A stretch of 38,726 bases of DNA, taken from assembly GCA_947382875.1 (NCBI GenBank), contig CANDBG010000020.1, forward strand, positions 1 to 38,726, given 5' to 3'. The translations under genes and the position numbers were made by a program. Source of the stretch: an uncultured Oscillibacter sp. GTDB taxonomy: Bacteria > Bacillota > Clostridia > Oscillospirales > Oscillospiraceae. Under the pieces are notes generated by a model that saw nothing but the letters and a program-made list of their open reading frames with translations, did not search any database and was not told the origin of the DNA. This document shows, piece after piece, positions 12,551 through 27,737 of the stretch; position 1 is the stretch's first letter, and each line of letters begins with the position of its first letter.

Positions 12551-12601
12551 AGGATACGCCTCCTTCGCGCCATGCAAAAAAACAGGCACGGCCGAAAATA
12601 G

Positions 12602-12643
12602 TAATTTAAGTTAATTATATAATCGTTTAACTACGATTATATA
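12602..12643. promoter_or_regulatory. Candidate ROK operator: 11-bp perfect inverted repeat
   Basis: TATATAATCGT (12616-12626), spacer TTAACT, ACGATTATATA (12633-12643): perfect 11-bp arms in an AT-rich stretch upstream of the ROK gene. The repeat carries minus-strand -10-like TATAAT elements, so a bound repressor would block its own promoter. The spacer gives TTAACTA, the complement of the TAGTTAA found near 12786 downstream of the operon promoter. AAGTTAATTA at 12608-12617 is a further related half-site. Confidence 0.6.
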
Positions 12644-12746
12644 CGGGAATTGGAAAAGATACAATATAGATTTTGTTAAAGAAGCGGTTAAAATATTTGT
12701 GCAGAATGCCTAAAATAAGAGGGAAAATATCATGGAAAATCGCGAG

Positions 12747-12798
12747 TTGACATTTGGAGTACGGAAGATTATTATTTAATCAAGTTAGTTAATTTTTC
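12747..12798 (+). promoter_or_regulatory. Sigma-A-type promoter of the sulfosugar operon with operator-like site
   Basis: TTGACA (12747-12752), 17-bp spacer, TATTAT (12770-12775): a near-consensus promoter about 75 bp before the first operon gene. Directly downstream, at 12776-12798, TTAATCAAGTTAGTTAATTT repeats the TTAA/TAGTTAA motif seen in the inverted repeat near the ROK gene. A repressor there would block transcription start. The rest of 12551-12848 shows no gene. Confidence 0.75.
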
Positions 12799-12848
12799 GG
12801 GCGCGCCTCCGCGCACCGGGAAAGTTGACAAAAATGAGGTGTGAAAGT

Positions 12849-13322
12849 ATGAAAGTAATCATCGGTTCTGACAAATCCGGATTCCCCCTGAAGGAAGCCA
12901 TCAAGGCTCACCTGACCGAAAAGGGCCACACAGTCGAAGACTGCGGCACTCTCGACCTGGACAACGTAAAGCCTTATTTCGTCACTGCGGCGGCCCTGGC
13001 TCCCAGAGTGCAGAGCGGCGAGTTTGAAAAGGGTATCCTCATCTGCGGCACCGGCGCAGGTATGGAGATCGTCGCCAACAAATACAAGGGCGTGTACGCC
13101 GTCCTCTGCAACGATATCTACGACGCCCGGATGTGCCGCGCCATCAACGACGCCAACGTCATGACCATGGGCGGCTGGAAGATCGCTCCCGAAGTCGGCT
13201 GCGAAATGGCTGACACCTTCCTCGCCACCGATTTCACCCAGGGCCTGGAAGAATGGCGTCAGGAATTCCTCAAGGGCGCAAAGGAAAAGGTCAAGGGACT
13301 GGAAGCCGAAATTTACGGCTAA
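12849..13322 (+). CDS. sqwI: RpiB/LacA-like isomerase, likely sulfoerythrose isomerase
   Basis: 157-residue RpiB/LacAB-family sugar isomerase. The catalytic Cys is kept (LICGTGAGM, C66, the same number as in E. coli RpiB), as is the NDANVMTMGG block. Two family positions differ: the usual SDHAG motif is SDKSG (K9), and the His of the usual HND motif is Ile (I99, RAINDANV). Both positions help bind or open phosphosugars in RpiB, so a non-phosphorylated substrate is plausible. In the sulfo-TK pathway a protein of this family (SqwI) converts 4-deoxy-4-sulfoerythrose to sulfoerythrulose. First gene of the operon; ATG 12849 follows GAGGTG. The assignment rests on context and these substitutions. 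Confidence 0.8.
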   Translation: MKVIIGSDKSGFPLKEAIKAHLTEKGHTVEDCGTLDLDNVKPYFVTAAALAPRVQSGEFEKGILICGTGAGMEIVANKYKGVYAVLCNDIYDARMCRAINDANVMTMGGWKIAPEVGCEMADTFLATDFTQGLEEWRQEFLKGAKEKVKGLEAEIYG

Positions 13323-13344
13323 TCACCGAAAGGAAGTGCAGAAC

Positions 13345-14175
13345 GTGAACGAAGTCAAAAAGTTTGCCGTGGACATCCGCAAGGAAACCATCAAGTGCAT
13401 CGGTAATCTGGGCGTGGGACACATCGGCGGCGCCCTCTCCATCGTGGACGTGCTGGCGGTGCTGTACGGCGGCGAAATGAACATCGACCCCAAGAACCCC
13501 CAGAAGGATGACCGGGATATGCTGGTCTGCTCCAAGGGCCACGCCGGCCCGGCTGTGTATGCCACCCTCGCGCTGAAGGGATATTTCCCGATGGAAATGC
13601 TGGACACGCTGAACAAGCCCGGCACCAGGCTTCCCAGCCACTGCGACATGAACCGGACCCCCGGCATCGATATGACCACCGGTTCCCTGGGCCAGGGCGC
13701 AAGCTCCGCCATGGGCATTGCCTGCGCCAACCGCCTCAAGGGGTACAACAACTATACATACCTGATTCTGGGTGACGGCGAAATTGAAGAAGGTCAGGTC
13801 TGGGAAGCCGCCATGTTCGCTGCCGCGAAGAAGCTCTCCCACATGATCGCGTTCGTCGACTACAACAAGGCCCAGATCGACGATACCCCGGAAAACCTCT
13901 GCGCCCTGGGCGATGTCGCGAAAAAGTTTGAGAGCTTCGGCTGGTTCGCTCAGAACGTCGCGGACGGCAACGACGTGGAACAGATTTCCGCCGCCATCGC
14001 CAAGGCCAAGGCCGAAGCGGGCGAACGTCCCTCCGTCATCGTGCTGAACACGGTGAAGGGCAAGGGTTACAGCAAGATCGAAGGTTCCCTCGGCTCCCAC
14101 AATATGCCGGTAACGGCCGAGATGGTGGAAGAAGCCGTGGCCGAACTGGACAAAGCCGCCGCAGCCCTCGCCTGA
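13345..14175 (+). CDS. sqwG: Transketolase, N-terminal (TPP-binding) subunit
   Basis: 276-residue N-terminal half of a split transketolase. It has the thiamine-diphosphate motif starting GDGEIEEGQ (G143-D144-G145) and ending with N174, and the conserved CSKGHAGPAVYA and HCDMNRTPGID segments. With the next gene it forms one enzyme. In the sulfo-TK pathway the pair (SqwGH) takes C2 units from sulfofructose and then sulfoerythrulose, passing them to glyceraldehyde-3-phosphate to give xylulose-5-phosphate. Start GTG 13345 is preferred over GTG 13336 because the GAAAGGA site ends 10 bases before the former and only 2 before the latter. Sequence alone cannot separate this from an ordinary split transketolase; neighbours support the specialised role. 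Confidence 0.85.
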   Translation: MNEVKKFAVDIRKETIKCIGNLGVGHIGGALSIVDVLAVLYGGEMNIDPKNPQKDDRDMLVCSKGHAGPAVYATLALKGYFPMEMLDTLNKPGTRLPSHCDMNRTPGIDMTTGSLGQGASSAMGIACANRLKGYNNYTYLILGDGEIEEGQVWEAAMFAAAKKLSHMIAFVDYNKAQIDDTPENLCALGDVAKKFESFGWFAQNVADGNDVEQISAAIAKAKAEAGERPSVIVLNTVKGKGYSKIEGSLGSHNMPVTAEMVEEAVAELDKAAAALA

Positions 14176-14213
14176 GCGCCTGCGGACCGAATTTTGACGA
14201 GGAGGATAATAGC

Positions 14214-15182
14214 ATGAGCGTAAAAGTGGCGCAAAATCATGCGGTGAGCGATAAGGAACTGCGGAAGGAATTCTGCGATACGCTGCTGGCGATGGCGGCG
14301 GAGGACGATAAGGTTGTCGTGCTGGACGCGGACCTGATGAATGCGGCGGGTACAAAGCCGTTCCGGGCCGCCTATCCTGAGCGGACCTTCGACTGTGGCG
14401 TGCAGGAAGCGAACATGATTGGCGTGGCGGCAGGCCTGTCGTCCCGCGGGTTCGTTCCCTTTACGCATACTTTCGGACCCTTCGCGGCCCGCCGCGCCTG
14501 CGATCAGATCTTCATGTCCTGCGCGTATGCAAAGCAGAACGTGAAGGTCGTGGGTTCGGACCCCGGCATCACCGCTGCCCTGAACGGCGGCACACATATG
14601 CCCTTTGAGGATATGGGCATCATGAGCACCATTCCCGAAATGACCGTCGTGGAGCCCTGCGATCTGGTTTCCGTGGGCAAAGTGACCCGTCTGGCGAAGG
14701 AAACCAAGGGCTGCTGGTACATCCGCCTGCACCGCAAGGGCGCGCCGACTGTCTATGAGGAAGGCACCGATTTCACCGTCGGCAAGGCAAACCTGCTGAA
14801 AGACGGCAAGGACGTTACCATTATTGCCATGGGTTATCTGGTGGCTGAGGCTCTGAAGGCCGCCGAGGCCCTGGAAAAGGAAGGCATTTCCGCCCGTGTG
14901 CTGGATATGTGGTGCTTGAAGCCTCTGGATGAGGAAGCCGTCCTCGCGGCCGCGAAGGAAACCGGCGCGATTGTCACCGCAGAGAACCACAACGTCAAGA
15001 ACGGCCTGGGCAGCGCGGTTGCATCCACCCTGGCCCAGAACTGCCCCGCCATCCTGGAGATGGTTGGCGTGCAGGACGAGTTCGGTGAAGTCGGCCCCAC
15101 CCCGTACCTGGCCGAACGCTTCAAGCTGACCGCCGACGAAATCGTCGCCAAGGTGAAAAAGGCCGTCGCCCGCAAGGCGTAA
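14214..15182 (+). CDS. sqwH: Transketolase, C-terminal (pyrimidine-binding) subunit
   Basis: 322-residue partner of the preceding gene. It contains the Pyr domain with the cofactor-activating Glu in CGVQEANMIGVAAGLSSRG (E65), followed by the transketolase C-terminal domain. ATG 14214 follows GAGGAGGATAATAGC, a strong site, 38 bp after the N-subunit gene. Together the two chains make a full-length-equivalent transketolase of about 600 residues. Split transketolases are usual in Clostridia for pentose metabolism; here co-transcription with a sulfoquinovosidase suggests the sulfosugar-specific form. Confidence 0.86.
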   Translation: MSVKVAQNHAVSDKELRKEFCDTLLAMAAEDDKVVVLDADLMNAAGTKPFRAAYPERTFDCGVQEANMIGVAAGLSSRGFVPFTHTFGPFAARRACDQIFMSCAYAKQNVKVVGSDPGITAALNGGTHMPFEDMGIMSTIPEMTVVEPCDLVSVGKVTRLAKETKGCWYIRLHRKGAPTVYEEGTDFTVGKANLLKDGKDVTIIAMGYLVAEALKAAEALEKEGISARVLDMWCLKPLDEEAVLAAAKETGAIVTAENHNVKNGLGSAVASTLAQNCPAILEMVGVQDEFGEVGPTPYLAERFKLTADEIVAKVKKAVARKA

Positions 15183-15200
15183 CAGAGGAGGAGCACAGTA

Positions 15201-16322
15201 ATGTGGGAGTATTTGCAGCCGGTAACGATCCGGTTTGGCGAGGGCGTTGTCAAGGAACTGCAAAAAGCAGCGGAGTCCCTTGGCTGTAAGCGCGGCCTGC
15301 TGGTCAGCGACCCCTTTTTCATGAAGAGCGGTCTTGCGGACAGCATTCTGCAGTCCAGCGGCGGCGTCCTGGCCGGCGTGTACAGCGAGATTTCCCCGAA
15401 CCCGGAAACCGTGGAGGTCGACGCCTGTGCGAAGAAAATCCGTGAGGAGAACATTGACTTCCTGGTCGCCCTGGGCGGCGGCAGCGCCCTGGACTGCGCC
15501 AAGGCGGCGGGTTCCATCTGCTTTACCGAGGACTCCATCCGTAAGTACCACGGCACCGGCGTTCCGATGCCCCAGAAGCACCTGCCCCTGATTGCCATTC
15601 CTACGACGGCAGGCACCGGCAGTGAAGTTACCTGCGTGTCCGTCCTGAGCGACCACGAGCTGGGGAAAAAAGGTCCCATCGTGTCCAACGCGTTTTATCC
15701 GGCCCTGGCCCTGGTGGACCCGGAGCTGACCTACACCCTGCCTCCCTACATGACCGCCAGCACCGGCATTGATGTCCTGTGCCATGCGGTGGAGGGCTTC
15801 TGGAGCAAGGGCCATCAGCCCATCTGCGACGCCCTGGCGCTCCACGCCAGCAAGATCGTGTTCCAGTATCTGCGCACGGCCTGCAAGGAGCCGGAGAACA
15901 AAGAGGCCCGGGCTAAAATGGCGGAGGCTTCCGTGATTGCGGGTCTGGCCTTCACCCTGCCCAAGACCACCAGTTCCCATGCCTGCTCCTTCCCCCTGAC
16001 GAACCTGTTCCACATCCCTCACGGCGAAGCCTGCGGCCTGACTCTGGACTACTTTGCCCGCGTCAACGCCGATGCCGAGCCCAAGGATGGACGGATTCAC
16101 ACGTTCGCACGGGAACTGGGCTTCAAGGATATGTACGACATGGCCGACGCCATTGCCCAGCTGAAAAAGGATCTGGGCCTGCGTACCGACCTGAAGGAGT
16201 TCCGCCTCACTGACGAGCAGGTCGCCGAGCTGGTCAAGACCAGCCATCACCCCAATATGCTCAACAATCCCGTGGAGATTACCGACGAGATTCTGGATAA
16301 GATGTATCAGTCCATGCGCTGA
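15201..16322 (+). CDS. sqwF: Iron-containing alcohol dehydrogenase, likely sulfoacetaldehyde reductase
   Basis: 373-residue group III alcohol dehydrogenase. NAD-binding motif GGGSALDCAKAAG (about 92-104), PTTAGTGSEVT, and the four metal ligands D191, H195, H260 and H274 (GIDVLCHAVEGF; SHACSF; HIPHGEACG) are all present. The family includes phosphonoacetaldehyde reductases and the sulfoacetaldehyde reductases that make isethionate. In this operon the expected substrate is sulfoacetaldehyde from the second transketolase step; its reduction regenerates NAD in an anaerobe. ATG 15201 follows AGAGGAGGAGC. A 3-sulfolactaldehyde reductase is the main alternative, but no aldolase or transaldolase to make that substrate is present. 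Confidence 0.8.
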   Translation: MWEYLQPVTIRFGEGVVKELQKAAESLGCKRGLLVSDPFFMKSGLADSILQSSGGVLAGVYSEISPNPETVEVDACAKKIREENIDFLVALGGGSALDCAKAAGSICFTEDSIRKYHGTGVPMPQKHLPLIAIPTTAGTGSEVTCVSVLSDHELGKKGPIVSNAFYPALALVDPELTYTLPPYMTASTGIDVLCHAVEGFWSKGHQPICDALALHASKIVFQYLRTACKEPENKEARAKMAEASVIAGLAFTLPKTTSSHACSFPLTNLFHIPHGEACGLTLDYFARVNADAEPKDGRIHTFARELGFKDMYDMADAIAQLKKDLGLRTDLKEFRLTDEQVAELVKTSHHPNMLNNPVEITDEILDKMYQSMR

Positions 16323-16337
16323 GCGGGGAGTGGGAAC

Positions 16338-17003
16338 ATGATTGAACGGCTGAATCAAGTAAATGATGTGCCGGTTTTGTCCGTGAAGGACGCGGCGTTC
16401 GCCCCCTACGGACGGATTATCACCGGCTATGATTTCAGCGGCTTGATTTCCTACCTCACGGAAAAAACCGAAATCCCCGGGACGGGCAATATTTACGTTG
16501 CCTCCGTCCCGGAGATGGAGGCCGACCCCGTGGCCGCCGAGCTGAAAACCGTTTTCTACGGCGGTATGGACATGGAAATCGGCTACTGCAACGGAAGAAA
16601 TTCCACCTATAACGGCTTTGAATACCACAAAGGCAGTGAAATCAACATCGCCGTGACGGACTTCATGCTGGTCCTGGGCCACACTTGGCAGATCAGGGAC
16701 CTCACCTTCAAGGCGGAGGATGCTCAGGTCTTTTTTGTGGAAAAAGGTACCGCCATTGAGATGTATCAGACAACACTGCACTTGTCCCCCTGCAAGGTGA
16801 CGGACGAGGGATTCAAAGGCGTCGTCATTCTGCCCAGAGGAACGAATACGCCCCTGCCGGAAAAGCACGTGACCGACGACCCGGAAAGCCGTCTGCTTTT
16901 GCAGCGGAACAAATGGGTTCTGGCTCACCCGGACCGGGAACCGCTGATGAAACAGGGTGCGCATCCCGGCCTGCTGGGCGAAAACAAAGAGCTGTTTTAC
17001 TGA
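16338..17003 (+). CDS. DUF4867-family cupin-like protein, possible sulfosugar isomerase or mutarotase
   Basis: 221 residues matching the DUF4867 pattern: beta-rich, with EYHKGSEINIAVTDFMLVLG in the middle followed by FFVEKGTAIEMYQTTLHLSP. The spaced His/Glu residues (H and E in EYHKGSE, E in FFVEKG, H in TLHLSP) resemble the metal-binding set of cupin sugar isomerases. It lies between the sulfoacetaldehyde reductase and sulfoquinovosidase genes with 15- and 34-bp gaps. My recollection is that such proteins recur in Firmicutes sulfoquinovose clusters; I could not check this. Candidate roles are sulfoquinovose-to-sulfofructose isomerase or anomer mutarotase. The FucI-like gene at 23212 competes for the isomerase role. 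Confidence 0.7.
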   Translation: MIERLNQVNDVPVLSVKDAAFAPYGRIITGYDFSGLISYLTEKTEIPGTGNIYVASVPEMEADPVAAELKTVFYGGMDMEIGYCNGRNSTYNGFEYHKGSEINIAVTDFMLVLGHTWQIRDLTFKAEDAQVFFVEKGTAIEMYQTTLHLSPCKVTDEGFKGVVILPRGTNTPLPEKHVTDDPESRLLLQRNKWVLAHPDREPLMKQGAHPGLLGENKELFY

Positions 17004-17037
17004 ATCATCAAGCTGAACAGAAAGGAGGCGAGGCGCC

Positions 17038-19044
17038 ATGAAATTTGTGCGAAACGGTTCCGCCTGGACCCTGGAGCATGACGGAAAAATTCTTCTGGAA
17101 TGCGGGGAATCCACGCCGCTTCTGTATGTCGGCTGCGGCAAGGAAACCGTCGATATGTACCGCGGCAACTACAAGATTGAAGATTACGTCGTCGAACGCC
17201 GCCCGCTGGCGGTGAAGGAAATCGCGGAGACGGAGAACGGCGCGGCGCTGGACTTCGGCGAAGTGAAGGTCTCCCTCACCATCGAGGGCGACTGCGCAAC
17301 GCTGCGCTTCTGGCAGGAAAATCCGGAGATTAATCGTTTCTGGTTCCGAGTGAAGGCCGAGGCCGACGAGTTCTGCTACGGCTGCGGCGAGCAGATGTCG
17401 TACTTCAATCTGCGGGGACGGCATTTTCCGCTCTGGACGTCCGAGCCGGGCGTGGGACGGGACAAAACCACTTATGTTACCTGGCGGTCCGACGTAGAAA
17501 ACAAGGCGGGCGGCGATTATTACAACACCTATTTCCCCCAGCCAACTTACGTTTCCAGCCGTCATTACTATCTGCACACAGATACCACCGCTTATGCCGA
17601 TTTTGACTTCCGGAATGCGGATTTCCATGAACTGCAAATCTGGGAGGTCCCGGCTTCCATCCGCATTGAGGCGGCTTCCACATTCGTGGACCTGCTGAAA
17701 AAGGAAAGCGCGTTCTTCGGCCGCCAGCCGGAACTGCCGGACTGGGTTTACGACGGCCTGATTATCGGCGTCCAGGGCGGCAGCGAGCGTTCCTTCGGCC
17801 TGATGGATAAGACGCTGGAACATGGCATCAAGGTCTGCGGCGTCTGGTGCCAGGACTGGAGCGGCAAGCGGATTACCAGTTTCGGAAAACGCCTGCAATG
17901 GGACTGGCATTTCAACCAGGAAATGTACCCCAATCTCCCCCAGGAGATTGAAAAGCTGCACCAGCGGGGCATCAAGTTCCTGGGCTACATCAACCCTTAC
18001 CTCGTCAATGACGGCGAGCTTTACAAGGAAGGTCTCGAAAAGGATGTATTCGCGAAAAAATCCGACGGCAGCGTGTATCTGGTGGACTTCGGCGAGTTTG
18101 ACTGCGCCATTCCCGACCTCACCAAGCCGGAGGCGTACCAGTGGTACAAGGACCGGGTAATCAAGGAGTGCAGTCTGGACATCGGCATCGACGGCTGGAT
18201 GGCCGATTTCGGCGAATATATGCCGACCGATGACATCGTTCTGCACAGCGGCAAGCCCGCCATGATCGAACATAACCATTATCCGGCTCTGTGGGCGAAG
18301 TGCAACTATGAGGCCCTGGCGGAAACCGGCAGACTGGGCGAAGTCCTGTACTTCATGCGGGCCGGCTACACCGGAAACCAGAAATATTGCGTTCTTATGT
18401 GGGAGGGCGACCAGTCCGTTGACTTCTCCATCCATGACGGTCTGGCTTCCGTGGTCTGCGGCGCGCTGAGTCTCGGTATGACCGGCTGCGGCCTCACACA
18501 CAGCGATATTGGCGGTTACACATCCCTGTTTGACAACTGCCGTACAAAGGAAGTGTTCCTCCGCTGGGCGGAAATGGCCGCCTTTACTGCGGTGATGCGT
18601 ACGCATGAATGCAACCGTCCGGAACAGAACTTCCAGTATTACGACGACGAGGACTGCATGAAACAGCTGGCCCGGCTGGTGGATGTTTACACTATGCTCA
18701 AGCCCTACATCAAAGCCCTCGTTCACGAAAACTGCACCGACGGCATTCCGGTTCAGCGTCCGCTGTTCCTCCACAACGAGGACGACCCGCGCTGTTATGA
18801 AATCCAGTACCAGTACCTGCTGGGACCGGACATGTTGGTTGCGCCGGTGTATCTGGCGGACCAGACGGAATGGCCCGTCTATCTCCCCGAGGGCGAATGG
18901 GTCCACCTGTGGACCGGCAAGACCTGCGGAAAAGGCGATCACACCGTTCCGGCCGCCCTGGGCGACACGCCGGTTTTCTACAAAAAAGATTCCAAGTACG
19001 CGGAACTTTTCGCGGAAATCGGCAAAAAACATGGCCGGGCGTAA
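17038..19044 (+). CDS. yihQ: Sulfoquinovosidase, GH31 family (YihQ type)
   Basis: 668-residue retaining alpha-glycosidase close to E. coli YihQ along its length. The sulfonate-reading residues are present: Q272 in CQDWSGKR, then R285 and W288 in FGKRLQW, matching YihQ Q288, R301 and W304. The nucleophile is D390 (GWMADFGEY) and the acid/base D458 (WEGDQSVD); LTHSDIGGYT is also conserved. The enzyme releases sulfoquinovose from sulfoquinovosyl glycerol, the deacylated plant sulfolipid. There is no signal peptide, so it acts in the cytoplasm and the glycoside must be imported intact; the glycerol appears inside the cell, which fits the gldA and dhaKL genes later in the operon. Ordinary alpha-glucosidases lack the Q/R/W set, so the call is strong. 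Confidence 0.95.
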   Translation: MKFVRNGSAWTLEHDGKILLECGESTPLLYVGCGKETVDMYRGNYKIEDYVVERRPLAVKEIAETENGAALDFGEVKVSLTIEGDCATLRFWQENPEINRFWFRVKAEADEFCYGCGEQMSYFNLRGRHFPLWTSEPGVGRDKTTYVTWRSDVENKAGGDYYNTYFPQPTYVSSRHYYLHTDTTAYADFDFRNADFHELQIWEVPASIRIEAASTFVDLLKKESAFFGRQPELPDWVYDGLIIGVQGGSERSFGLMDKTLEHGIKVCGVWCQDWSGKRITSFGKRLQWDWHFNQEMYPNLPQEIEKLHQRGIKFLGYINPYLVNDGELYKEGLEKDVFAKKSDGSVYLVDFGEFDCAIPDLTKPEAYQWYKDRVIKECSLDIGIDGWMADFGEYMPTDDIVLHSGKPAMIEHNHYPALWAKCNYEALAETGRLGEVLYFMRAGYTGNQKYCVLMWEGDQSVDFSIHDGLASVVCGALSLGMTGCGLTHSDIGGYTSLFDNCRTKEVFLRWAEMAAFTAVMRTHECNRPEQNFQYYDDEDCMKQLARLVDVYTMLKPYIKALVHENCTDGIPVQRPLFLHNEDDPRCYEIQYQYLLGPDMLVAPVYLADQTEWPVYLPEGEWVHLWTGKTCGKGDHTVPAALGDTPVFYKKDSKYAELFAEIGKKHGRA

Positions 19045-19080
19045 GCCTGTGGGAAAACCCGCGGCAGGGGGGGAACCATC

Positions 19081-19827
19081 ATGTTGAATTACATACTGTT
19101 CCTGTTGGTTATCTTAGGGGCGAACATCATGCAGGGAATCACCGGCTTTGCCGGTACGATTCTTGCCATGTCTCCCAGTCTGCTGCTGGTGGGATATCCC
19201 GTCGCAAAGCCGGTGCTGAACGTACTGGCGCTGATCTCCGGTTTTTACGTGTTTATCGGCAACGTGAAAAACGTGAACTGGAAAGAGTTATGGAAAATCG
19301 TCGCCTGGATGGCGGCCGGCATTGCAGGCGGTATTTTTATACAGGGCCTGTTTGCTGAACAACAGCAGATTTTGCAAAAACTGCTGGGTGTGTTCGTGGT
19401 ATTCCTGGCGGCCCAGGGCATCTATAAGACGTTCCGTCCCGCAAAGGACGGCGAACCCGATGCTCCGAAACCGCCCTCCAAAGCCACCGTCCTGTTTCTG
19501 CCCGCGGCGGGTATTGTACACGGTATTTTCGTCTCCGGCGGGCCGCTGCTGGTGAGTTACCTGACGAAGAAAAACCTCGACAAGGTGACGTTCCGGGCGA
19601 CCATTTCCACGGTTTGGGTATTTCTCAACACCCTGGTTCTGTTTGATGACATTCGTACGGGGCTGTGGAACCCCTCGCTTCTGAAGGTCCAATTGGTGTC
19701 GATCCCCTTCCTTCTTGCGGGAATGTTCATCGGAAGCAAACTGTATGCGAGAATGAGCCAGCAGTTATTCATGAAAATCACGTATGTACTGCTGCTCATT
19801 TCTGGTATATCCCTGCTGGTCAAGTGA
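19081..19827 (+). CDS. TauE/SafE-family membrane exporter
   Basis: 248 residues with about eight hydrophobic segments and the two-fold TauE/SafE pattern: ANIMQGITGFAGTILAMSPS in the first repeat and GIVHGIFVSGGPLLVSYLTK in the second. The family exports sulfite, sulfoacetate and other organosulfonates, and members are common in sulfoglycolysis gene clusters. Here the likely cargo is isethionate, the predicted sulfonated end product, which an anaerobe without sulfite-releasing enzymes must discard. It is 36 bp after yihQ with a GGGGGGG-type site. Uptake instead of export cannot be ruled out from sequence. Confidence 0.85.
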   Translation: MLNYILFLLVILGANIMQGITGFAGTILAMSPSLLLVGYPVAKPVLNVLALISGFYVFIGNVKNVNWKELWKIVAWMAAGIAGGIFIQGLFAEQQQILQKLLGVFVVFLAAQGIYKTFRPAKDGEPDAPKPPSKATVLFLPAAGIVHGIFVSGGPLLVSYLTKKNLDKVTFRATISTVWVFLNTLVLFDDIRTGLWNPSLLKVQLVSIPFLLAGMFIGSKLYARMSQQLFMKITYVLLLISGISLLVK

Positions 19828-19857
19828 CCGGCAACAAAATTAAAGGAGGATCCTGTG

Positions 19858-20952
19858 ATGAAGAAAAGAACGTTAGCGCTCATCCTGACCCTGGCCATGT
19901 CTCTGGCCCTGCTCCTGACCGCCTGCGGCGGCGACTCCGGTTCCGGCGGCACCACCGGCGGTACGACCGGCGGCGACGCCCAGACCGAAGGCGAAGACAC
20001 CGGCGGCAATCCCGATGCGGCCGGCGGCACCGTGAAGATCATCTGCCCCTACGGCGTAGGCGGCACGGCCGACGCCATTGGCCGTAAGTTTGCCCTGATT
20101 GCCAACAAGACCCACCCCGAATACAACTTCATCGTTGAGAACATGACCGGCGGCGACGGCTTCGCGGCTGCCGACTACTACACCGACCAAGACCCCTCCA
20201 CCAAGGAGCTGCTGGTCTATGGCTACGGCGTTGCGTACCGTCATGACCTTGGCAAGAAGTACGGCACTGAGGTCGTGGACTTCGACCGTGAGGACATTTA
20301 TCCCATCGCGGCCATCGATGACCGGACCTGGATTCTGTACAGCACTCCCGACATGACCCTGGCGGACGTGATTGCCAAGGCCCAGGAGAGCGGTATCAAG
20401 ATGTCCGGCGGCAACCCCCTCTCGGACCCCCACCTCGCTCTGGGCTCCCTGATGACCCAGATGGGCGGCAAGGTCATGGTTGTTCCCTATGACGGCGGCG
20501 CGGCCCAGAAGAAGGGCCTGACCGACGGCGAAGTCGACGTGTTTGTCGGCACCACCCAGGCCGCTCAGGACGAAGTCGAAGCGGGCACCCTGGTTCCTAT
20601 CCTGGCTTTCTCTGAAAACACCTTCGAAGGCTTCACCACGCCCAATGGCGCCATCAGCGTTCCTTCCATCGCCGGTTCCGGCATGGCTCCCGAACTGGAT
20701 TCCAGCAAGGACTTCACCGGTTCCATCCTCCGTGGCGGCGGCTACATTGCCACCCGCACCGGTGCGGATCAGGCCTGGATTGACGAGATGGTTCAGATTG
20801 CCAAGGACGTTTGGGCCGACCCCGAATATTCCGACTGGATTGCTTCCATCCTCCTCAACAAGTTTGAGGAATACGGCGAGGACGCCGTGGCAGGTCTGAA
20901 TCAGGCTTGCGAAAAGGCCGTGGCCGCTTATGACCTCATGAGCGCCGGCTGA
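19858..20952 (+). CDS. tctC: TTT transporter substrate-binding lipoprotein (TctC)
   Basis: 364 residues. A lipoprotein signal (MKKR, hydrophobic stretch, LLTAC lipobox, acylated C23) is followed by a Gly/Ser/Thr-rich linker and a Bug/TctC binding domain: VKIICPYGVGGTADAIGRKF, then GGDGFAAADYY. Proteins of this fold capture small carboxylates or similar anions outside the membrane and hand them to TctAB. ATG 19858 is preferred over GTG 19855 because AAAGGAGG at 19842-19849 is ideally spaced for either and ATG is stronger. Sitting inside the sulfoquinovose operon, it may bind sulfoquinovosyl glycerol or sulfoquinovose; the substrate is inferred from context only. Confidence 0.9.
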   Translation: MKKRTLALILTLAMSLALLLTACGGDSGSGGTTGGTTGGDAQTEGEDTGGNPDAAGGTVKIICPYGVGGTADAIGRKFALIANKTHPEYNFIVENMTGGDGFAAADYYTDQDPSTKELLVYGYGVAYRHDLGKKYGTEVVDFDREDIYPIAAIDDRTWILYSTPDMTLADVIAKAQESGIKMSGGNPLSDPHLALGSLMTQMGGKVMVVPYDGGAAQKKGLTDGEVDVFVGTTQAAQDEVEAGTLVPILAFSENTFEGFTTPNGAISVPSIAGSGMAPELDSSKDFTGSILRGGGYIATRTGADQAWIDEMVQIAKDVWADPEYSDWIASILLNKFEEYGEDAVAGLNQACEKAVAAYDLMSAG

Positions 20953-20965
20953 TTTTGAACCCAGC

Positions 20966-20993
20966 CCCGGAGGCGCGTGTGTGCGCCTCCGGG
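20966..20993 (+). other. Strong intercistronic hairpin after tctC
   Basis: CCCGGAGGCGC (20966-20976), loop GTGTGT, GCGCCTCCGGG (20983-20993): a perfect 11-bp GC-rich stem with no T-run. In the gap between a binding-protein gene and its membrane-component genes, such a stem typically protects the upstream mRNA or partly attenuates transcription, giving more TctC than TctB/TctA. Confidence 0.75.
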
Positions 20994-21021
20994 AAACTGA
21001 ACGACAGAGGGAGATTTTTCT

Positions 21022-21489
21022 ATGAAGGTCAAAATCAAAACCAACCTCTGGTCAGGCATTGTTATGGGCGCGTTCAGCATTATCATGCTGCTGCTGCTGC
21101 CCACCCAGGTACGGGTGCCCGCTTACGATTCCGGTGCGCCAAGCCCCCGGATTATTCCTGCGATCTGCCTGGTCGGTATGCTGATCTGCGCCGCGGCCCT
21201 GATCATCCAGAGCCTGGTATTCAAAAAGGAAAAGGAATTTGAATTCGATTGGGCAGTCGAAAAGCCCTGTATCCTCATGATTCTGATGCTGTGCGTTTAC
21301 ACGGCCATGATTATTTACCTGGGCTTTGTGATTGCCTCCGTTGTCATCTTCCCCCTGATGCTTTTCTATTGCGGCGAGCGCAAGCCCCCGATCTATATCT
21401 TTACCGTTGCGGCGGCTGTCGGCATTTTCTTCCTGTTCAAGTTTGTGTTCCATGTGTCCCTCCCCGCGATTCCGTTCTTAGGAGGTTAA
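21022..21489 (+). CDS. tctB: TTT transporter small membrane subunit (TctB)
   Basis: 155 residues with four predicted membrane helices (about 10-30, 45-65, 85-105, 115-150) in the TctB arrangement, including the conserved APSPRIIPAICLVGMLICAA region. It is the small integral subunit that pairs with TctA. The gene follows the hairpin after tctC and ends 4 bp before tctA, whose AGGAGG site lies over its stop codon. Short membrane proteins of this type are only recognisable by context, which here is clear. Confidence 0.85.
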   Translation: MKVKIKTNLWSGIVMGAFSIIMLLLLPTQVRVPAYDSGAPSPRIIPAICLVGMLICAAALIIQSLVFKKEKEFEFDWAVEKPCILMILMLCVYTAMIIYLGFVIASVVIFPLMLFYCGERKPPIYIFTVAAAVGIFFLFKFVFHVSLPAIPFLGG

Positions 21490-21493
21490 CGCT

Positions 21494-23143
21494 ATGGGCG
21501 ACATTCAAATGATTATTCAGGCTGTTGGCATGGTCTTCAGTCCCCTGAACATCGCCATGATTTTCGGCGGTCTGGTTCTGGGCATGATCGTGGGCTGCAT
21601 CCCCGGCCTGAGCGTTACCCTGGGTATTATTCTGCTGCTGCCCCTGACCTATTCCTTCCCCTCCGCTGACACGGCCATCATTGCCCTGCTGGCGGTATAC
21701 GTGGGCGGTATGTACGGCGGTTCCATCAGCGCCATCACGCTGAACACCCCCGGTACAAACTCCGCCATCGCAACCACTTTCGACGGCTATCCCCTGGCGA
21801 AGCAGGGCAAGGTGAAAAAGGCGCTGGATACGTCTTTGTTCGCCTCCACCTTCGGCGGATTGTTCTCCGCTGTGCTTCTGCTGGTCTGCGCCTCCTTCAT
21901 CACGAAGCTGGTGGCAAACTTCGCCTCGGTTGAATATTTCTCCATGGCCATTCTGGGTATCTCCCTGATTGCCGGCGTCAGCGGCGACAGCCTGCCCAAA
22001 GGCGTGCTGTCGGGTCTGCTGGGCATCCTGATTGCCTCCATCGGCATGGACGCCATCACCGGCGTGACCCGGTTCTCCTTTGGCCTGGATACGCTGAAAT
22101 TCGGCGTCGATATGCTGCCCGCCATGATTGCCCTGATCGCTCTGACCCAGGTGGTGCAGAAGCTGCGGGATTTCGTGGTCAGTCACGGCAAGCTCGACGA
22201 CGCAAACAAAATCGACAACGAGGGCCTGACTCTCAAAGAGATGAAGGCGATTACCCCCGCCTGCACCCGTTCTTCCGCGATTGCCTCCATTCTGGGCGCA
22301 ATGCCCGGCGTGGGCGGCGGCGTGGCGCAGTTCATGTGCTACAACGAGTGCCGCCGGGCCTCCAAACACCCGGAAATGTTCGGCAAGGGCAGTCTGGAAG
22401 GCATTGCCGCTGCGGAATCCAGCAACAATGCCGTCGTTGGCTCCGCCATGATTCCCCTGCTGACCCTCGGCATCCCCGGCGACGGCGTTACGGCTCTGCT
22501 GCTGGGCGCATTCATCCTCCACGGCATTCAGCCCGGCCCCACGATGTTCACAAAGCAGGGCGTCATTGCCTATTCGATCATCCTGGGCTGCCTCGTGGCG
22601 AACCTGTTCCTGTATCCCATCGGTATGCTGCTGACCCGGGCGGTTGCAAAAATCATTCAGGTGCGGTATACTTACCTTGCTCCTGTGATTATCATGTTCT
22701 GCTTCGCGGGCGCGTTCGCCGCCACCGGCAACACCAAGGAGCTTGTTCTGGTTGCAGCGATTCTGGTGTTCAGCTATGTGCTGGTTGTGCTGGATATTTC
22801 CTCCACGCCCCTCATGCTGGGTATGATTCTGGCGGACATCATGGAAATGAACTTTGTCACCAGCATGATGAGCTATGACCGGGACTATCTGATTTTCTTC
22901 AAGCGTCCCATTTCCTGCGTCATTCTGATTCTGACCGTTATTCTGGTTATCTCCATGATCCGCATTAACAAGAAGGTGGAAGCCCTCAACAAGGCTCAGC
23001 TCGAGGAAATGCAGAAAGAACATGAAGAAACCGGAAAGCCCTCCGAGGAGCCCCGCGAAAAGGGTACCGACTGGGCCGGTCTGGAAAAACTGGACGAGGC
23101 GGCGGAAAAGCCGGTCGAAAGTCCAGCGGACAAACCCAAATAA
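21494..23143 (+). CDS. tctA: TTT transporter large membrane subunit (TctA)
   Basis: 549 residues, the large permease with about twelve membrane helices. The two TctA signature regions are present: VGCIPGLSVTLGIILLLPLT with GGMYGGSISAITLNTPGT near the N-terminus, and AMPGVGGGVAQFM with LTLGIPGDGVTALLLGA in the second half. Both Pro/Gly loops belong to the ion and substrate path. The last 45 residues are a charged cytoplasmic tail (Glu/Lys/Pro) longer than I expect for the family. With TctB and TctC it forms a cation-driven importer of small anions. A strict citrate role seems unlikely given the operon. Confidence 0.93.
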   Translation: MGDIQMIIQAVGMVFSPLNIAMIFGGLVLGMIVGCIPGLSVTLGIILLLPLTYSFPSADTAIIALLAVYVGGMYGGSISAITLNTPGTNSAIATTFDGYPLAKQGKVKKALDTSLFASTFGGLFSAVLLLVCASFITKLVANFASVEYFSMAILGISLIAGVSGDSLPKGVLSGLLGILIASIGMDAITGVTRFSFGLDTLKFGVDMLPAMIALIALTQVVQKLRDFVVSHGKLDDANKIDNEGLTLKEMKAITPACTRSSAIASILGAMPGVGGGVAQFMCYNECRRASKHPEMFGKGSLEGIAAAESSNNAVVGSAMIPLLTLGIPGDGVTALLLGAFILHGIQPGPTMFTKQGVIAYSIILGCLVANLFLYPIGMLLTRAVAKIIQVRYTYLAPVIIMFCFAGAFAATGNTKELVLVAAILVFSYVLVVLDISSTPLMLGMILADIMEMNFVTSMMSYDRDYLIFFKRPISCVILILTVILVISMIRINKKVEALNKAQLEEMQKEHEETGKPSEEPREKGTDWAGLEKLDEAAEKPVESPADKPK

Positions 23144-23157
23144 CCGAACCCATATCC

Positions 23158-23188
23158 GCGGCCGCTCGGAGCAAAACTGGGCGGCCGC
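23158..23188 (+). other. Intercistronic inverted repeat before the FucI-like gene
   Basis: GCGGCCGC occurs at 23158-23165 and again at 23181-23188. Each is its own reverse complement, so the pair can form an 8-bp GC stem with a 15-base loop in the 68-bp gap after tctA. There is no T-run, so an mRNA-processing or stability role is more likely than full termination. Confidence 0.45.
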
Positions 23189-23211
23189 TCCAAAAAAGGA
23201 GATGACAACCA

Positions 23212-24549
23212 ATGAGCTTTCAGGTTGCCTATGTGCCCATCGGTGTGGGTACCTTCCATCTGGAAAGCGCACAGGTGCAGTTTGACCAGTCCGTTCAGCT
23301 CATCAAGTCCCTGACGGACAGCGGGGCATATCCCGATAAAATGCTGCTGACTCTGGATGACCTCAACGCGTATCTAGACACCATTCAGCCCAGCCTGATT
23401 GTGCTGCAAAACATCACATTCGCCAACGCCGCTTATGCGACGGAGGTTCTGAAGCGTTTTGAGTGCCCCATTTTGCTGTGGACCCTGCGGGAACCCGTCA
23501 TTGACGGCGGCCGTCTGCGTCTGAACTCCTTGACCGGCGCGTATTCCGCCGCCAACGCCATCCGGGCGTTCCGGGAAGGCGAGTTTGAGTACCTGTTCGG
23601 CGCGCCCGGCGACGAGGAAACCCGTCAGGAGATTGGCGCGGCGATTCAGGCGGCGAAGATCAAATACGACCTGCGGCATCTGAAACTGGCCTCCATCGGC
23701 CATACGCCCCAGGGCTTCGGCTTTGGACGGGCGCTGGATTCGGAAATCGCCAGCAAGTTCGGCGTTACGCTGGAATCCATCGAAGTCCGCGAGCTGATCG
23801 ACCGGGCCAAGGGTTACAGCGACGAGGAGTGCGCTGAGGACCTGGCGGAAGCCAAAAAGATTCTCGTCGGCCTGGACAAGACCCCGGAAAAGAACGTCAA
23901 GGACTTTGCACGGCTGTATAAGGCATACAAGGCGTACATTCAGGAAAACGACATCGGGGCGGTTTCCTCCCGCTGCTGGCCCGACCTGTTCACGTCTTAC
24001 GGCACGCCGGTCTGTGCGGTTCTGTCCCTGCTGAACAACGGCAAGACCGTCGCAAGCTGCGAGTCCGATACCTACGGCGCGCTGTCCATGTACATTGGCT
24101 CCCAGCTCTCCGGGAAGGCCGCTTTCTTTGGCGACCCCGTTTCCATGGACGAAAAAGAAAATACTGTTACCTTCTGGCACTGCGGCATGGCGGCCTGCTC
24201 CCTGGCCCGGGAAGACACCGGCGCGCAGGTGGGCGTCCACCCAAACCGCAAGCTGGGTCCGGCAATGGACTTCGGCTGCAAAGCCTGCGGCGAAGCCACC
24301 ATTTTCCGCGTGGGCCGCAAGCCTGACGGCACGTTCCGTTTCTTCATCGCGGGCGGCGAGGCCATGGATAAGCCGAAGCAGTTCTGCGGCACGTCCGTCG
24401 TGGTGAAGCCAGAGGGCAGCGCAAAGGAACTGGTATACAACAGCGTAAAGGACGGCTGGGAACCTCATTTCGTGGTGGTTTACGCCGATGTGAAAAACGA
24501 GCTGGAAAAACTCGCCCATATGCTGGGCATGGAAGTCTGCCGCTATTAA
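23212..24549 (+). CDS. L-fucose/L-arabinose isomerase-like protein
   Basis: 445 residues, COG2407-like two-domain aldose-ketose isomerase fold. The metal-binding positions of the FucI/AraA group are kept: E284 and D286 in ASCESDTYGALS, and H323 in FWHCGMAACSLA, so it should be an active Mn-type isomerase. SRCWPDLFTSYGTPVCAVLS is another family block. It is about 100 residues shorter than FucI. In this operon it could interconvert sulfoquinovose and sulfofructose, the step needed before the transketolase, or isomerise another sulfo- or pentose sugar. ATG 23212 follows AAAAGGAG. No fucose- or arabinose-specific kinase or aldolase lies nearby. Confidence 0.8.
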   Translation: MSFQVAYVPIGVGTFHLESAQVQFDQSVQLIKSLTDSGAYPDKMLLTLDDLNAYLDTIQPSLIVLQNITFANAAYATEVLKRFECPILLWTLREPVIDGGRLRLNSLTGAYSAANAIRAFREGEFEYLFGAPGDEETRQEIGAAIQAAKIKYDLRHLKLASIGHTPQGFGFGRALDSEIASKFGVTLESIEVRELIDRAKGYSDEECAEDLAEAKKILVGLDKTPEKNVKDFARLYKAYKAYIQENDIGAVSSRCWPDLFTSYGTPVCAVLSLLNNGKTVASCESDTYGALSMYIGSQLSGKAAFFGDPVSMDEKENTVTFWHCGMAACSLAREDTGAQVGVHPNRKLGPAMDFGCKACGEATIFRVGRKPDGTFRFFIAGGEAMDKPKQFCGTSVVVKPEGSAKELVYNSVKDGWEPHFVVVYADVKNELEKLAHMLGMEVCRY

Positions 24550-24609
24550 GCAAGTTCAAACGCAGCCGCCGGAAGCGGTCTGCAAAATTTAATATGGAGG
24601 TTTCTAGTT

Positions 24610-25737
24610 ATGAGAAAAGCCTTTATCTGCCCGACGAAGTATGTACAGGGCGAGGACGAACTGCTGAACCTTGGCTACTTTGTCAAGACCTTTGGCGATT
24701 CCGCCCTGCTGATCGCGCTGGACAGCGATGTGGAGCGCGTGAAAGACAAGCTGGACAAAACGGCGGAAAAATTCGGCGTGAAGTTTGTGCCGAGCAACTT
24801 CCGCGGCCAGTGCTCCCGTCAGGAAGTGGAGCGGCTCAAGGAAGTGGCCGCCCAGAACAAGTGCGCCTGCATTGTCGGCATGGGCGGCGGCAAAGCCATT
24901 GACACCTCCAAGTGTGTGGGACAGGGCGACGGCGTGATTATTGTCCCCACCATCGCCGCCACTGACGCCCCGACGAGCCATTCCGCCGTGTTGTACACCG
25001 AGGAAGGCGAGTTTGACGATTACGCTTACTTCAAGCAAAGCCCCAGCGTGGTGCTGGTTGACACGACGGTCGTTGCCAACGCGCCGTCCCGGTTTCTGGT
25101 CTCCGGTATGGGCGACGCCCTGTCCACCTATTTCGAGGCCCGGGCCAATGTTCGTTCGTTCTCCCGCGTCAACGCCAGCCTCCCCTGCGGCGCACGGGAA
25201 GGACTCTGCGCCCCCGGCATGGGCACCAACGCGGCGTTTGCCCTGGCAGCCCAGTGCTACCAGACTTTGCTGGAAGACGGCGTAAAGGCAAAGCAGGCCT
25301 GCGACATGAACATTGTGACGCCGGCTCTGGAAAATATTATTGAAGCCAACATCCTCCTCTCCGGCCTTGGCTTTGAGAGCGGCGGCCTGGCGGCGGCGCA
25401 CGGCATCGTCGACGGTCTGACCATCCTCCCCGGCACGCATAAGTATATGCATGGCGAAGAAGTGGCCTTCGGCACCCTCTGCCATTTGATGCTGGAGAAT
25501 GCTCCCAGCGCGGAGATTGAGGAAGTTCTGGAATTCTGCCTGTCCGTGGGTCTGCCGGTCTGCCTGAAAGATCTGGGCGTCGACAGCGTAAGCCCCGAAG
25601 AACTGCGTCAGGTGGCCGAAAAGGCCAGCATCCCCGAGGAATCCACCCACGCCATGCCGTTCCCCGTCACACCGGAGACCGTGGCCGCCGCGATTGTTGC
25701 CGCCGATAAAATTGGCAGCACCTTCAAACAGGAGCAT
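24610..25737 (+). CDS. gldA: Glycerol dehydrogenase
   Basis: Annotated here to the last shared codons; the frame ends at 25746. 378-residue GldA-type dehydrogenase oxidising glycerol to dihydroxyacetone with NAD. NAD-binding GMGGGKAIDTSK (about 96-107), PTIAATDAPTSHSAVLYT, and the zinc ligands D169 (GMGDALSTY), H264 (AAAHGIVDGL) and H281 (HGEEVAFG) are all present. The ATG follows TATGGAGGTT. The stop overlaps the start of the kinase gene (ATGA, 25743-25746), so the two are translationally coupled and must work in sequence. Glycerol freed by the cytoplasmic sulfoquinovosidase is the obvious substrate. Confidence 0.92.
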
Positions 25738-25742
25738 ACGGC

Positions 25743-27491
25743 ATGAAAAAGATTATCAATGATCCCTTGACCGTCGTCCGGGAAATGTGCGCCGGTATCG
25801 TCGAGGCGCATCCCGAACTGACCATGGATGTCAAGTATAAAGTCATCCACAAAAAAGAGCTGAACAAGGGCAAAGTGACCCTCATCAGCGGCGGCGGCAG
25901 CGGTCACGAACCCGCGCACGCCGGATTTGTCGGCAAGGGCATGCTGGATGCGGCGGTATGCGGCGACGTGTTTGCGTCTCCGTCCCAGATTCAGGTATAC
26001 AAGGCCATCCAGCAGACTGCCAGCGACGCGGGCACGCTGCTCATCATCAAGAATTACAGCGGCGACATCATGAACTTCCGCAACGCCGCGTTTCTCGCCC
26101 AGGAAGACGGCATTCACGTTGACTATGTGAAGGTCGACGACGATATTGCCGTCAAGGACAGCCTGTACACCGTAGGCCGCCGGGGCGTGGCGGGCACCGT
26201 GTTTGTCCATAAGATCGCCGGCGCGGCGGCGGAAGCCGGTAAGAACCTGGCGGAAGTCAAGGCCGTCGCGGAAAAGGCCGCGGCCAATGTCAAGAGCATC
26301 GGCTTCGCCTTCACCTCCTGCACGGTCCCGGCCAAGGGCACGCCTACCTTTGATATTGGCGAGGGTGAAATGGAATACGGCGTGGGCATTCACGGTGAAC
26401 CGGGCATTCGCCGGGAAGCGGTGGCGTCTGCGGCGGAACTGGCGTCCCGGATGGTGGAATCTCTCAGCCAGGAGCTGGGACTTCAGGGCAAGGAGCGGGT
26501 TGCCGTTCTGGTGAACGGCTTCGGCGCGACGCCCCTGATGGAGCTGTATCTGTTCAACCATGCGGTCACGAAAGAACTCGCCAAGAAGGGCGTGACCATT
26601 GCCCGCGTGTTTGCAGGCAACTACATGACCAGTATCGACATGGCGGGCGCGTCCCTGTCCATTTTGAAGCTGGACGACGAGCTGGAAAGCTATCTGAACG
26701 CTCCAAGCGACGCGCCGGCGTTCAAGGTGAGCGGTCCGGTGGCGGCTACGGAGCTGCTGGACATTGCGCAGACCGCCTCTGCGGGCGAGGCGGACTACGG
26801 CATCGAAACGCCGGCGGATTACGCAGTCGTGGGCGAGTCCCTGACGCTGAAAAACGTCATGTACATGGTGGACGCGATGTGTGAGTCTGCCATTCGGAAC
26901 GAGGTTCCGTTCTGCGAACTTGACTCCCACGCCGGCGACGGCGACTTCGGCATGAGCATTGCCAAGGGCTTCCGTCAGCTGAAAGCGGAATGGAAATCCA
27001 TCGTGTCGGCGGAGAATCTGGATATTTCCAGCTTCCTCAACGCCTGCTCTCTGGTAATCATGGAGCATTGCGGCGGCGCGTCCGGCCCGATTTGGGGCAG
27101 TGCGTTCCGCGCCGCGGCCCGGAGCGCACGGGGCAAGGAAACGCTGTCTGTCAGCGACTTTGCAGAGCTGATGCAGGCGGCTGTAAGCGGCATTCAGGCC
27201 ACTGGCGAGCGTTCCTTCGGACGCGGCGCCGTCGTGGGCGACAAGACGCTGATTGACGCGCTGGTTCCCTGCGCCGACGCCTGGACGGAAAACGCCAAGA
27301 AGGGCATCTCCTGGAAGGACGGCTTTTCCGCGGGTGCGGAGGCAGCCATGGCAGGCGCCAAGAGCACGGAAAAGATTGCCGCCCGTATGGGCCGTGCCGG
27401 CACGGTAGGCGAGCGCAGCATCGGCTGGGCCGACGCAGGCGCTTATGGTCTGGCGGTCATCTTCGGCGACGTCACCAACGGGCTGAAATAA
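25743..27491 (+). CDS. Dihydroxyacetone kinase, fused DhaK-DhaL (ATP-dependent type)
   Basis: 582 residues in one chain. The DhaK domain (about 1-330) has the SGGGSGHEPAHAGFVGKGML motif and the covalent substrate His H217 (GVGIHGEPGI). The DhaL domain (about 360-582) has the Mg-ATP aspartates D394, D399 and D401 (ELDSHAGDGDFG) and the CGGASGPIWGSAFR loop. Fusion of both domains without a PTS DhaM points to ATP as phosphate donor. The product, dihydroxyacetone phosphate, becomes glyceraldehyde-3-phosphate, the C2 acceptor of the sulfo-TK transketolase. Last gene of the operon, followed by a strong terminator. Other trioses or tetruloses are possible substrates for this family. Confidence 0.93.
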   Translation: MKKIINDPLTVVREMCAGIVEAHPELTMDVKYKVIHKKELNKGKVTLISGGGSGHEPAHAGFVGKGMLDAAVCGDVFASPSQIQVYKAIQQTASDAGTLLIIKNYSGDIMNFRNAAFLAQEDGIHVDYVKVDDDIAVKDSLYTVGRRGVAGTVFVHKIAGAAAEAGKNLAEVKAVAEKAAANVKSIGFAFTSCTVPAKGTPTFDIGEGEMEYGVGIHGEPGIRREAVASAAELASRMVESLSQELGLQGKERVAVLVNGFGATPLMELYLFNHAVTKELAKKGVTIARVFAGNYMTSIDMAGASLSILKLDDELESYLNAPSDAPAFKVSGPVAATELLDIAQTASAGEADYGIETPADYAVVGESLTLKNVMYMVDAMCESAIRNEVPFCELDSHAGDGDFGMSIAKGFRQLKAEWKSIVSAENLDISSFLNACSLVIMEHCGGASGPIWGSAFRAAARSARGKETLSVSDFAELMQAAVSGIQATGERSFGRGAVVGDKTLIDALVPCADAWTENAKKGISWKDGFSAGAEAAMAGAKSTEKIAARMGRAGTVGERSIGWADAGAYGLAVIFGDVTNGLK

Positions 27492-27517
27492 TCTCATACT
27501 CCCAAAAAACGGGAAAG

Positions 27518-27557
27518 CAGCTGCTGGTCAGAAGATTCTGACCGGCAGTTGTTTTTT
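27518..27557 (+). terminator. Terminator of the sulfosugar operon
   Basis: CAGCTGCTGGTCAGAA (27518-27533) pairs with TTCTGACCGGCAGTTG (27536-27551) with two G-T wobbles, and TTTTTT follows directly. It closes the 13-gene operon. Confidence 0.9.
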
Positions 27558-27650
27558 GCGTCAAACTCGCTTTTTCGCAAAGGAACGGAAGGAATTTCCT
27601 TTTTGCATTCTTCCAAATATCAGTAAATAGTTGAGTTTTTCACCGGTAAT

Positions 27651-27699: not shown

Positions 27700-27737
27700 G
27701 CATCTAAAATTTCTACAAGCGGAAAGGAAGGGTCCCC

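Follow-up and report, generated by a model that had tools for sequence, protein, structure and literature searches.

The 38,726-nucleotide contig analysed here (the window; CANDBG010000020.1, contig C20 of the 2.77 Mb, 87.5% complete genome GCA_947382875.1 of an uncultured Oscillibacter sp.) carries a 13-gene operon at positions 12849-27491. With it, an Oscillibacter-like gut anaerobe very probably ferments sulfoquinovosyl glycerol (SQGro), using both halves of this head group of the plant sulfolipid, through the sulfoglycolytic transketolase (sulfo-TK) pathway to isethionate. That it is a mosaic of mixed ancestry is well supported by phylogenetic trees, which support neither a donor nor a direction of exchange. 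The pathway, its occurrence in Oscillibacter metagenome-assembled genomes (MAGs) and the idea of a glycerol branch are already published. As far as the searches reach, the combination of modules, the type of reductase in this setting, the proposal of a tripartite tricarboxylate transporter (TTT) as importer and the evidence for mixed ancestry are new. The operon was compared within a set of 63 sulfoquinovosidase (SQase) loci, namely 53 from a glycosidase scan of named genomes, nine from the same family and the window, which are given L numbers below; gene calling relied on codon use and gene labels on BLAST, and some of the loci are cut. The 13 genes are as follows.

12849..13322, + strand: SqwI, LacAB_rpiB family (PF02502), with motifs SDKSG and GGW
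13336..14175, + strand: SqwG, N-terminal half of the split transketolase (PF00456, 176 bits; groups with L004, L018 and L054)
14214..15182, + strand: SqwH, C-terminal half of the split transketolase (best solved match split transketolase 6yaj, 269 bits)
15201..16322, + strand: predicted sulfoacetaldehyde reductase of the BkTauF type, in the SqwF role (closest to 6JKO)
16338..17003, + strand: DUF4867 cupin, SqvB/SftX (PF16161, 253 bits)
17038..19044, + strand: GH31 sulfoquinovosidase, YihQ (PRK10426, 959 bits, cut-off 553)
19081..19827, + strand: TauE/SafE-family permease, candidate isethionate exporter (PF01925, 92 bits)
19855..20952, + strand: TctC, solute-binding lipoprotein of the TTT transporter, candidate receptor for sulfoquinovose (SQ) or SQGro (PF03401)
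21022..21489, + strand: TctB (PF07331, 63 bits)
21494..23143, + strand: TctA permease (PF01970, 443 bits; tree)
23212..24549, + strand: SQ isomerase, SftI/SqvD (NF048012; AlphaFold2 fold; 46-row family tree)
24610..25746, + strand: glycerol dehydrogenase, GldA (NF006941, 508 bits, cut-off 336)
25743..27491, + strand: fused dihydroxyacetone kinase Dak1-Dak2, DhaK (NF011049, 734 bits, cut-off 492)

The genes are separated by 13, 38, 18, 15, 34, 36, 27, 69, 4, 68, 60 and -4 bases. A profile search gives the family order LacAB_rpiB, Transketolase_N, Transket_pyr with Transketolase_C, iron alcohol dehydrogenase (Fe-ADH), DUF4867, GH31, TauE, TctC, TctB, TctA, Fucose_iso_C, Fe-ADH/GldA and Dak1 with Dak2. 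These families confirm the split transketolase, RpiB-like isomerase, iron alcohol dehydrogenase and TauE protein that an initial annotation of the window had named, together with the genes of its TTT transporter and glycerol branch. That annotation did not name the SQ isomerase or the DUF4867 cupin.

The GH31 protein also bears out the YihQ-type SQase proposed there. PRK10426 is named alpha-glucosidase and is taken here to be the YihQ model. The protein keeps Q288, R301, W304, D405, D472 and Y508 of E. coli YihQ, presumably the diagnostic positions, which comprise the catalytic aspartate pair and the sulfonate-site residues; both sets are present. No signal peptide is visible at its N-terminus on inspection by eye, without a predictor, so glycerol would be released inside the cell. 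The 23212 protein is 61-94% identical to 35 relatives from SQase loci and probably provides the isomerase SqvD/SftI that sulfo-TK requires for the conversion of SQ to sulfofructose. Although a sequence search returned no relative in the PDB, its AlphaFold2 model (pLDDT 89.8) matches arabinose and fucose isomerases with TM scores of 0.73-0.82 on the query. The DUF4867 cupin matches the solved DUF4867 structure 9gyy (238 bits) and retains the metal-ligand pattern E-x-H-x3-E ... H of B. megaterium SqvB, a protein in which tests detected neither mutarotase nor kinase activity (PMC11968277).

The split transketolase SqwG and SqwH and the PF02502-type SqwI required by sulfo-TK are both present. SqwI retains the core of RpiB, with SDKSGF in place of the CDHVGF of E. 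coli RpiB and GGW in place of GSR, changes that presumably fall at the phosphate-site positions of RpiB. Among 18 SqwI proteins from SQase loci, SDKSG occurs in 16 (L043 has SDLSG and L018 is cut) and GGW in all 18. The initial annotation had expected SqwF as the last enzyme; the same reaction is expected of the window protein, which is of a different type, being only 37-38% identical to Faecalispora SqwF but identical at 235 of 368 positions (63.9%) to BkTauF. The latter is listed in the PDB as methanol dehydrogenase (6JKO) and described as a sulfoacetaldehyde reductase in PMC6616044. BkTauF residues F252, T257 and F265, which have been tested by mutation, are kept as F251, T256 and F264, and metal residues D192, H261 and H275 as D191, H260 and H274. 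Q196 is replaced by histidine (H195), a change also seen in homologues (PMC6616044). Since a reductase of the BkTauF type with its substrate residues kept occupies this position, isethionate is the expected end product, and the protein would serve as the NADH-dependent metal alcohol dehydrogenase that sulfo-TK requires for sulfoacetaldehyde reduction. BkTauF itself lies in a different setting, a putative taurine nitrogen-assimilation cluster (PMC6616044). With L004, L018 and L054 excepted, the reductases of other transketolase (TK) loci are only 28-42% identical to that of the window, which argues for a separate lineage as the source of the final enzyme.

Overall, a fitting protein is found for every core step, which supports the sulfo-TK pathway proposed in the initial annotation, and its statement that transaldolase, sulfofructose kinase and sulfofructose aldolase are absent holds among the window proteins scanned (small open reading frames lay outside the scan). 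All steps of the pathway in Clostridium sp. MSTE9 and Faecalispora (SqvD, SqwGH, SqwI, SqwF, SqwE) are predicted for the window too. Clostridium MSTE9 is assumed here to be Faecalispora-like, and the comparison was made with Faecalispora L035 and L036 and not with the MSTE9 cluster. Identity to the window is 57-58% for SqwG, 55-56% for SqwH, 63% for SqwI and SQase and 63-65% for SftI; these loci differ in their ABC importer, mixed gene orientations, lack of GldA and DhaK, and a TauE with only 32% identity. Sulfo-TK with isethionate and sulfoacetate ends, and SqvB/DUF4867 in SQ clusters, have been described (PMC9594981; PMC12890257). The pathway is reported from 4.7% of 3230 Oscillospiraceae genomes and from rumen Ca. 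Limivicinus, whose clusters resemble the window in family and in the isethionate route (PMC13219744), and from six Oscillibacter MAGs of a mouse catalogue (PMC12330013). In the genomes sampled here SQase occurs in 2 of 86 of the genus and 14 of 400 of the family, so the trait is patchy.

From the gene content, families and residues the following activities and transport directions are inferred. TctCBA would import SQGro or SQ, and a cytoplasmic SQase would split SQGro into SQ and glycerol. SftI, perhaps aided by the DUF4867 cupin, would convert SQ to sulfofructose, from which SqwGH would make two successive C2 transfers onto glyceraldehyde-3-phosphate. Between these rounds SqwI would isomerise the sulfoerythrose. 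The two rounds would yield two xylulose-5-phosphate (Xu5P) and sulfoacetaldehyde. The latter would be reduced with NADH by the BkTauF-type reductase, and the isethionate formed would be exported by TauE. GldA and DhaK would take glycerol to dihydroxyacetone phosphate, providing one NADH per sulfoacetaldehyde as well as a triose phosphate with which acceptor could be replenished.

The mosaic character of the operon is first apparent from its gene order. The block DUF4867-SQase-TauE-TctC-TctB-TctA-SftI is common to the window and to sulfo-transaldolase (TAL) operons such as L005, L006, L010, L014, L031 and L034, whereas upstream of it the TAL operons carry SftT and a sulfolactaldehyde reductase and the window and L004 carry SqwI-G-H-reductase. 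L004, from an Oscillibacter MAG, contains the whole orthologous 13-gene operon with 74-95% identity per protein. In the TAL operons of Enterocloster clostridioformis and Otoolea symbiosa (L005, L014), TctA is 87% and SQase 73-76% identical to the window proteins; these operons differ further in a downstream ROK gene and the lack of GldA and DhaK. The product of E. clostridioformis is 2,3-dihydroxypropane-1-sulfonate (DHPS) (PMC12330013). Isozymes of the two sulfoglycolytic Embden-Meyerhof-Parnas (EMP) routes are often interchanged, and SqvB and SqvD are common to sulfo-TAL, EMP2 and TK clusters (PMC9594981).

Unrooted trees were built for TctA (20 of 21 rows, >400 aa), SftI (46 rows, >380 aa and >350 bits), SqwGH (the 16 loci with both halves, from 20 SqwG and 17 SqwH of sufficient length) and SQase (49 rows between 600 and 760 aa, >700 bits; model LG+G4, no mixture). 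The SqwGH tree unites the window with L004, L018 and L054 in a single starred group (support 100/99), and the transketolase cassette thus belongs with the type found in two other Oscillospiraceae loci, L018 and L054. On the TctA tree the window and L004 fall with Lachnospiraceae-type TAL operons (86/84) and a starred branch (100/98) splits off L018 and L054. Forcing the four loci together, a group named from the SqwGH tree with the TctA and SftI trees already known, is rejected by the approximately unbiased test for TctA (p-AU 3.4e-10) and SftI (0.0018), as is the same grouping for SQase with the three members that have a whole SQase (6.6e-141). One common history for TK operons was likewise rejected for TctA (6.8e-13), SftI (7.8e-5) and DUF4867 (1.9e-7), and conversely the SqwGH tree rejects a single group of TTT loci (2e-10). 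The SQase rows nearest to the window after L004 are those of TAL operons L006, L010, L005 and L014.

Several observations, given here and in the next three paragraphs, tell against parts of this reading. For TauE one group of TK loci is not rejected (p 0.297), nor is a grouping of the window DUF4867 with that of L018 (p 0.176). The SftI tree places the window in a mixed TAL/TK group that includes L018 and L054 (100/93), apart from the Lachnospiraceae operons, and the only starred group that includes the window on the SQase tree is the one with L004; these two placements tell against a simple origin of the import, hydrolysis and isomerase set as a whole. As for function, the 23212 protein scores 424 bits against NF048012, under the cut-off of 700.

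The transporter genes comprise TctA, TctB and a binding protein with the TctC fold, the complete set expected of a TTT system. The Pfam score of TctC (28.5 bits) barely exceeds the cut-off of 27; its AlphaFold2 model (pLDDT 85.9) matches the TctC/Bug-type binding proteins TphC, MatC and Bug27. TctCBA is proposed as a candidate SQ/SQGro importer on the basis of slot exclusion and co-occurrence. The importer types in the 63 loci are TTT (21), ABC (20), SSF sodium symporter (7), GPH (3) and none (12, among them L042, which ends within TTT genes), and no locus carries two types. GPH proteins were counted only above 500 bits, which leaves out weak GPH-like proteins (23-28%) in L019, L028, L049, L084 and L087-L090; if these were counted, L019, L084, L087 and L088 would carry two importer types. 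TctA with at least 60% identity is found in 3 of 300 sampled family genomes (G000, G278 and G275), all three with SQase, and the next best match has 44%. No TTT linked to SQ was found in the open-licence literature searched, where the one paper retrieved concerns a taurine respirer. It is unlikely that the pathway is as described but TctCBA transports some other anion such as isethionate or a tricarboxylate, with SQ entering through TauE or another permease. E. clostridioformis SQ import is ascribed to SftA and not to TctCBA (PMC12330013), the direction of TauE is assigned by family only, and the importer counts rest on labelled genes, whose unlabelled neighbours may include further permeases. 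However, the counted importer types exclude one another, a TTT system, SlcGFH, is a putative sulfolactate importer (PMC10507020), and TauE is distributed as the occupant of an exporter slot would be. It is present in 22 loci, spread over TTT (9), SSF (6), GPH (3), ABC (2) and no-importer (2) loci, and never together with the other exporter candidate EamA (13 loci); one TauE in L036 was missed by the gene caller and is visible by tblastn.

GldA matches glycerol dehydrogenases in the PDB with up to 345 bits, and with DhaK it would complete the oxidation of glycerol predicted for the second half of SQGro. Six of the 63 SQase loci contain the pair. In four of them, all TAL loci, it lies between TauE and SftI, and in the window and L004 it follows SftI. 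The GldA proteins of these six cluster together weakly (60/88) in a tree where the rows from other genomes are tblastn segments. It is likewise doubtful, then, that GldA and DhaK merely ride in the operon and serve dihydroxyacetone or glycerol from other sources, as the pair recurs in two different positions beside an apparently cytoplasmic SQase that frees glycerol. On the other side, G106, G223 and G263, genomes without an SQase match, have a stand-alone pair with GldA of the same clade (71-74% identical) and no labelled SQ genes nearby. The clade was therefore rejected as a marker for SQ, and the pair is not SQ-specific. In the bifurcated TK/TAL cluster of Faecalicatena, which resembles the window in its sulfo-TK enzymes and in an SQ-induced glycerol dehydrogenase and dihydroxyacetone kinase, the two enzymes are proposed to supply glyceraldehyde-3-phosphate from SQGro and are also tied to dihydroxyacetone from cleavage of fructose-6-phosphate (PMC11659671). 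That cluster differs in an additional transaldolase, a predicted ABC importer and an NAD-dependent SQase (PMC11659671).

If Xu5P is assumed to return to triose phosphate via the pentose phosphate route, the balance to pyruvate is 1.33 ATP and 0.33 NADH for SQ and 2.33 ATP and 2.33 NADH for SQGro, glycerol supplying one NADH for each sulfoacetaldehyde. The route has to be assumed because the 87.5%-complete genome has neither a phosphoketolase match, so that this means of making the transketolase cycle self-refilling was dropped, nor a clear transaldolase. Its single PF00923 protein is FSA-like (fructose-6-phosphate aldolase), lies on another contig beside a zinc-type alcohol dehydrogenase and is 26% identical to SftT; further transketolase-domain matches are present. 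The one glycyl radical enzyme of the pyruvate formate-lyase type found in the genome (L058:1075-3450) is closest among solved types to B12-independent glycerol dehydratase, and was rejected as isethionate sulfite-lyase as it fits 1r8w with 620 bits versus 365 for 7kq3. Since no isethionate sulfite-lyase was found in this incomplete genome, isethionate is expected to leave the cell.

Sulfoacetate as the end product, known from the Acholeplasma variant of sulfo-TK (PMC12890257), is very improbable for an operon with no acylating dehydrogenase or CoA ligase and with a BkTauF-type reductase that keeps its substrate residues. Finally, though RpiB, transketolase, Fe-ADH and isomerase all represent broad families, degradation of a non-sulfonated sugar glycoside can practically be dismissed in view of the YihQ sulfonate-site residues, the SftI and DUF4867 relatives in SQase loci and the type of reductase.

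Four further features flank the SQGro operon.

11297..12589, - strand: divergently oriented regulator of the ROK family, candidate repressor responding to SQ (PF00480, 103 bits)
12620..12639, no strand: candidate operator, a palindrome with 6-base arms and an 8-base spacer, also present in L004 with a single central change
12747..12775, + strand: promoter-like site TTGACA-17-TATTAT, 11 of 12 consensus matches
27514..27558, + strand: intrinsic terminator, hairpin and U run, after the last gene

The promoter-like site is the best of 14 in the region 12400-28800, where shuffled sequence gives a mean of 6.2. The terminator hairpin was absent from a pattern-scan listing of the same region and was detected by folding of 27505-27565 (-34.9 kcal/mol, z -7.3, with the U run). 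Together with the common orientation and gaps of -4 to 69 bases, these signals agree with the single one-directional transcription unit of the initial annotation. The first gene starts at TTG 12825 in the list of open reading frames, but ATG 12849, closely preceded by GAGGTG, is the likelier start. Members of the ROK protein cluster occur in 31 of 54 SQase loci, the window counted. The palindrome was rejected as a general ROK operator, its arm pattern being present in only 2 of 63 sequences, the window and L004. An AraC-family regulator (27738-28589) and a second ROK-like protein (28775-30154) lie just downstream of the terminator. An SbcC/SbcD pair (5362-9266) and a type I asparaginase (10265-11263) lie beside the operon, and the asparaginase adjoins it in L004 too. 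The contig end (34479-38725) is ordinary-looking, with an HsdR-like type I restriction subunit and the start of HsdM.

The survey also revealed other arrangements of sulfoglycolysis genes. Among the TTT loci the cleavage type is TK in seven, TAL in nine and neither within reach in five. A further TK group (L007, L011, L017, L044, L047, L082, L084, L087 and L088) has EamA and no GldA or DhaK. In L021 (9863-17085), L020 and L042 a DUF4867-SQase operon, which in L021 includes TTT and SftI, stands beside a divergent block with an amidohydrolase. Neither transaldolase nor transketolase is labelled across 22 kb of L021, and the cleavage genes must sit elsewhere or sulfofructose must have another fate. 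The sulfo-TAL operon of Candidatus Epulonipiscium viviparus (L053:7000-19149), in which TauE and SftI are separated by a radical-SAM protein and an Fe-ADH, looks like the extended DHPS-fermenting type; in Faecalicatena faecalis (L015) such a pair is placed after SftI. L032 (1-6000) combines a transketolase half, SqwI, a transaldolase and an ABC importer in one locus and is possibly another bifurcated TK/TAL cluster.

More tentatively, sulfoglycolysis operons may be arrays of exchangeable slots for importer, carbon-cleavage cassette and exporter. The window operon would then be a natural recombinant with a TK cassette in the TAL position, TTT would be an undescribed class of SQ/SQGro importer present in a Treponema as well as in gut Lachnospiraceae and Oscillospiraceae, and the NADH of the glycerol half would pay for isethionate. 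The choice between TK and TAL decides whether isethionate or DHPS is passed to the hydrogen-sulfide producers of the gut. If TTT imports SQ, this would also point to the way SQ enters common gut species, E. clostridioformis among them. If the cleavage cassette is exchangeable while import and hydrolysis are kept, neither taxonomy nor the glycosidase gene by itself would tell which sulfonate is produced.

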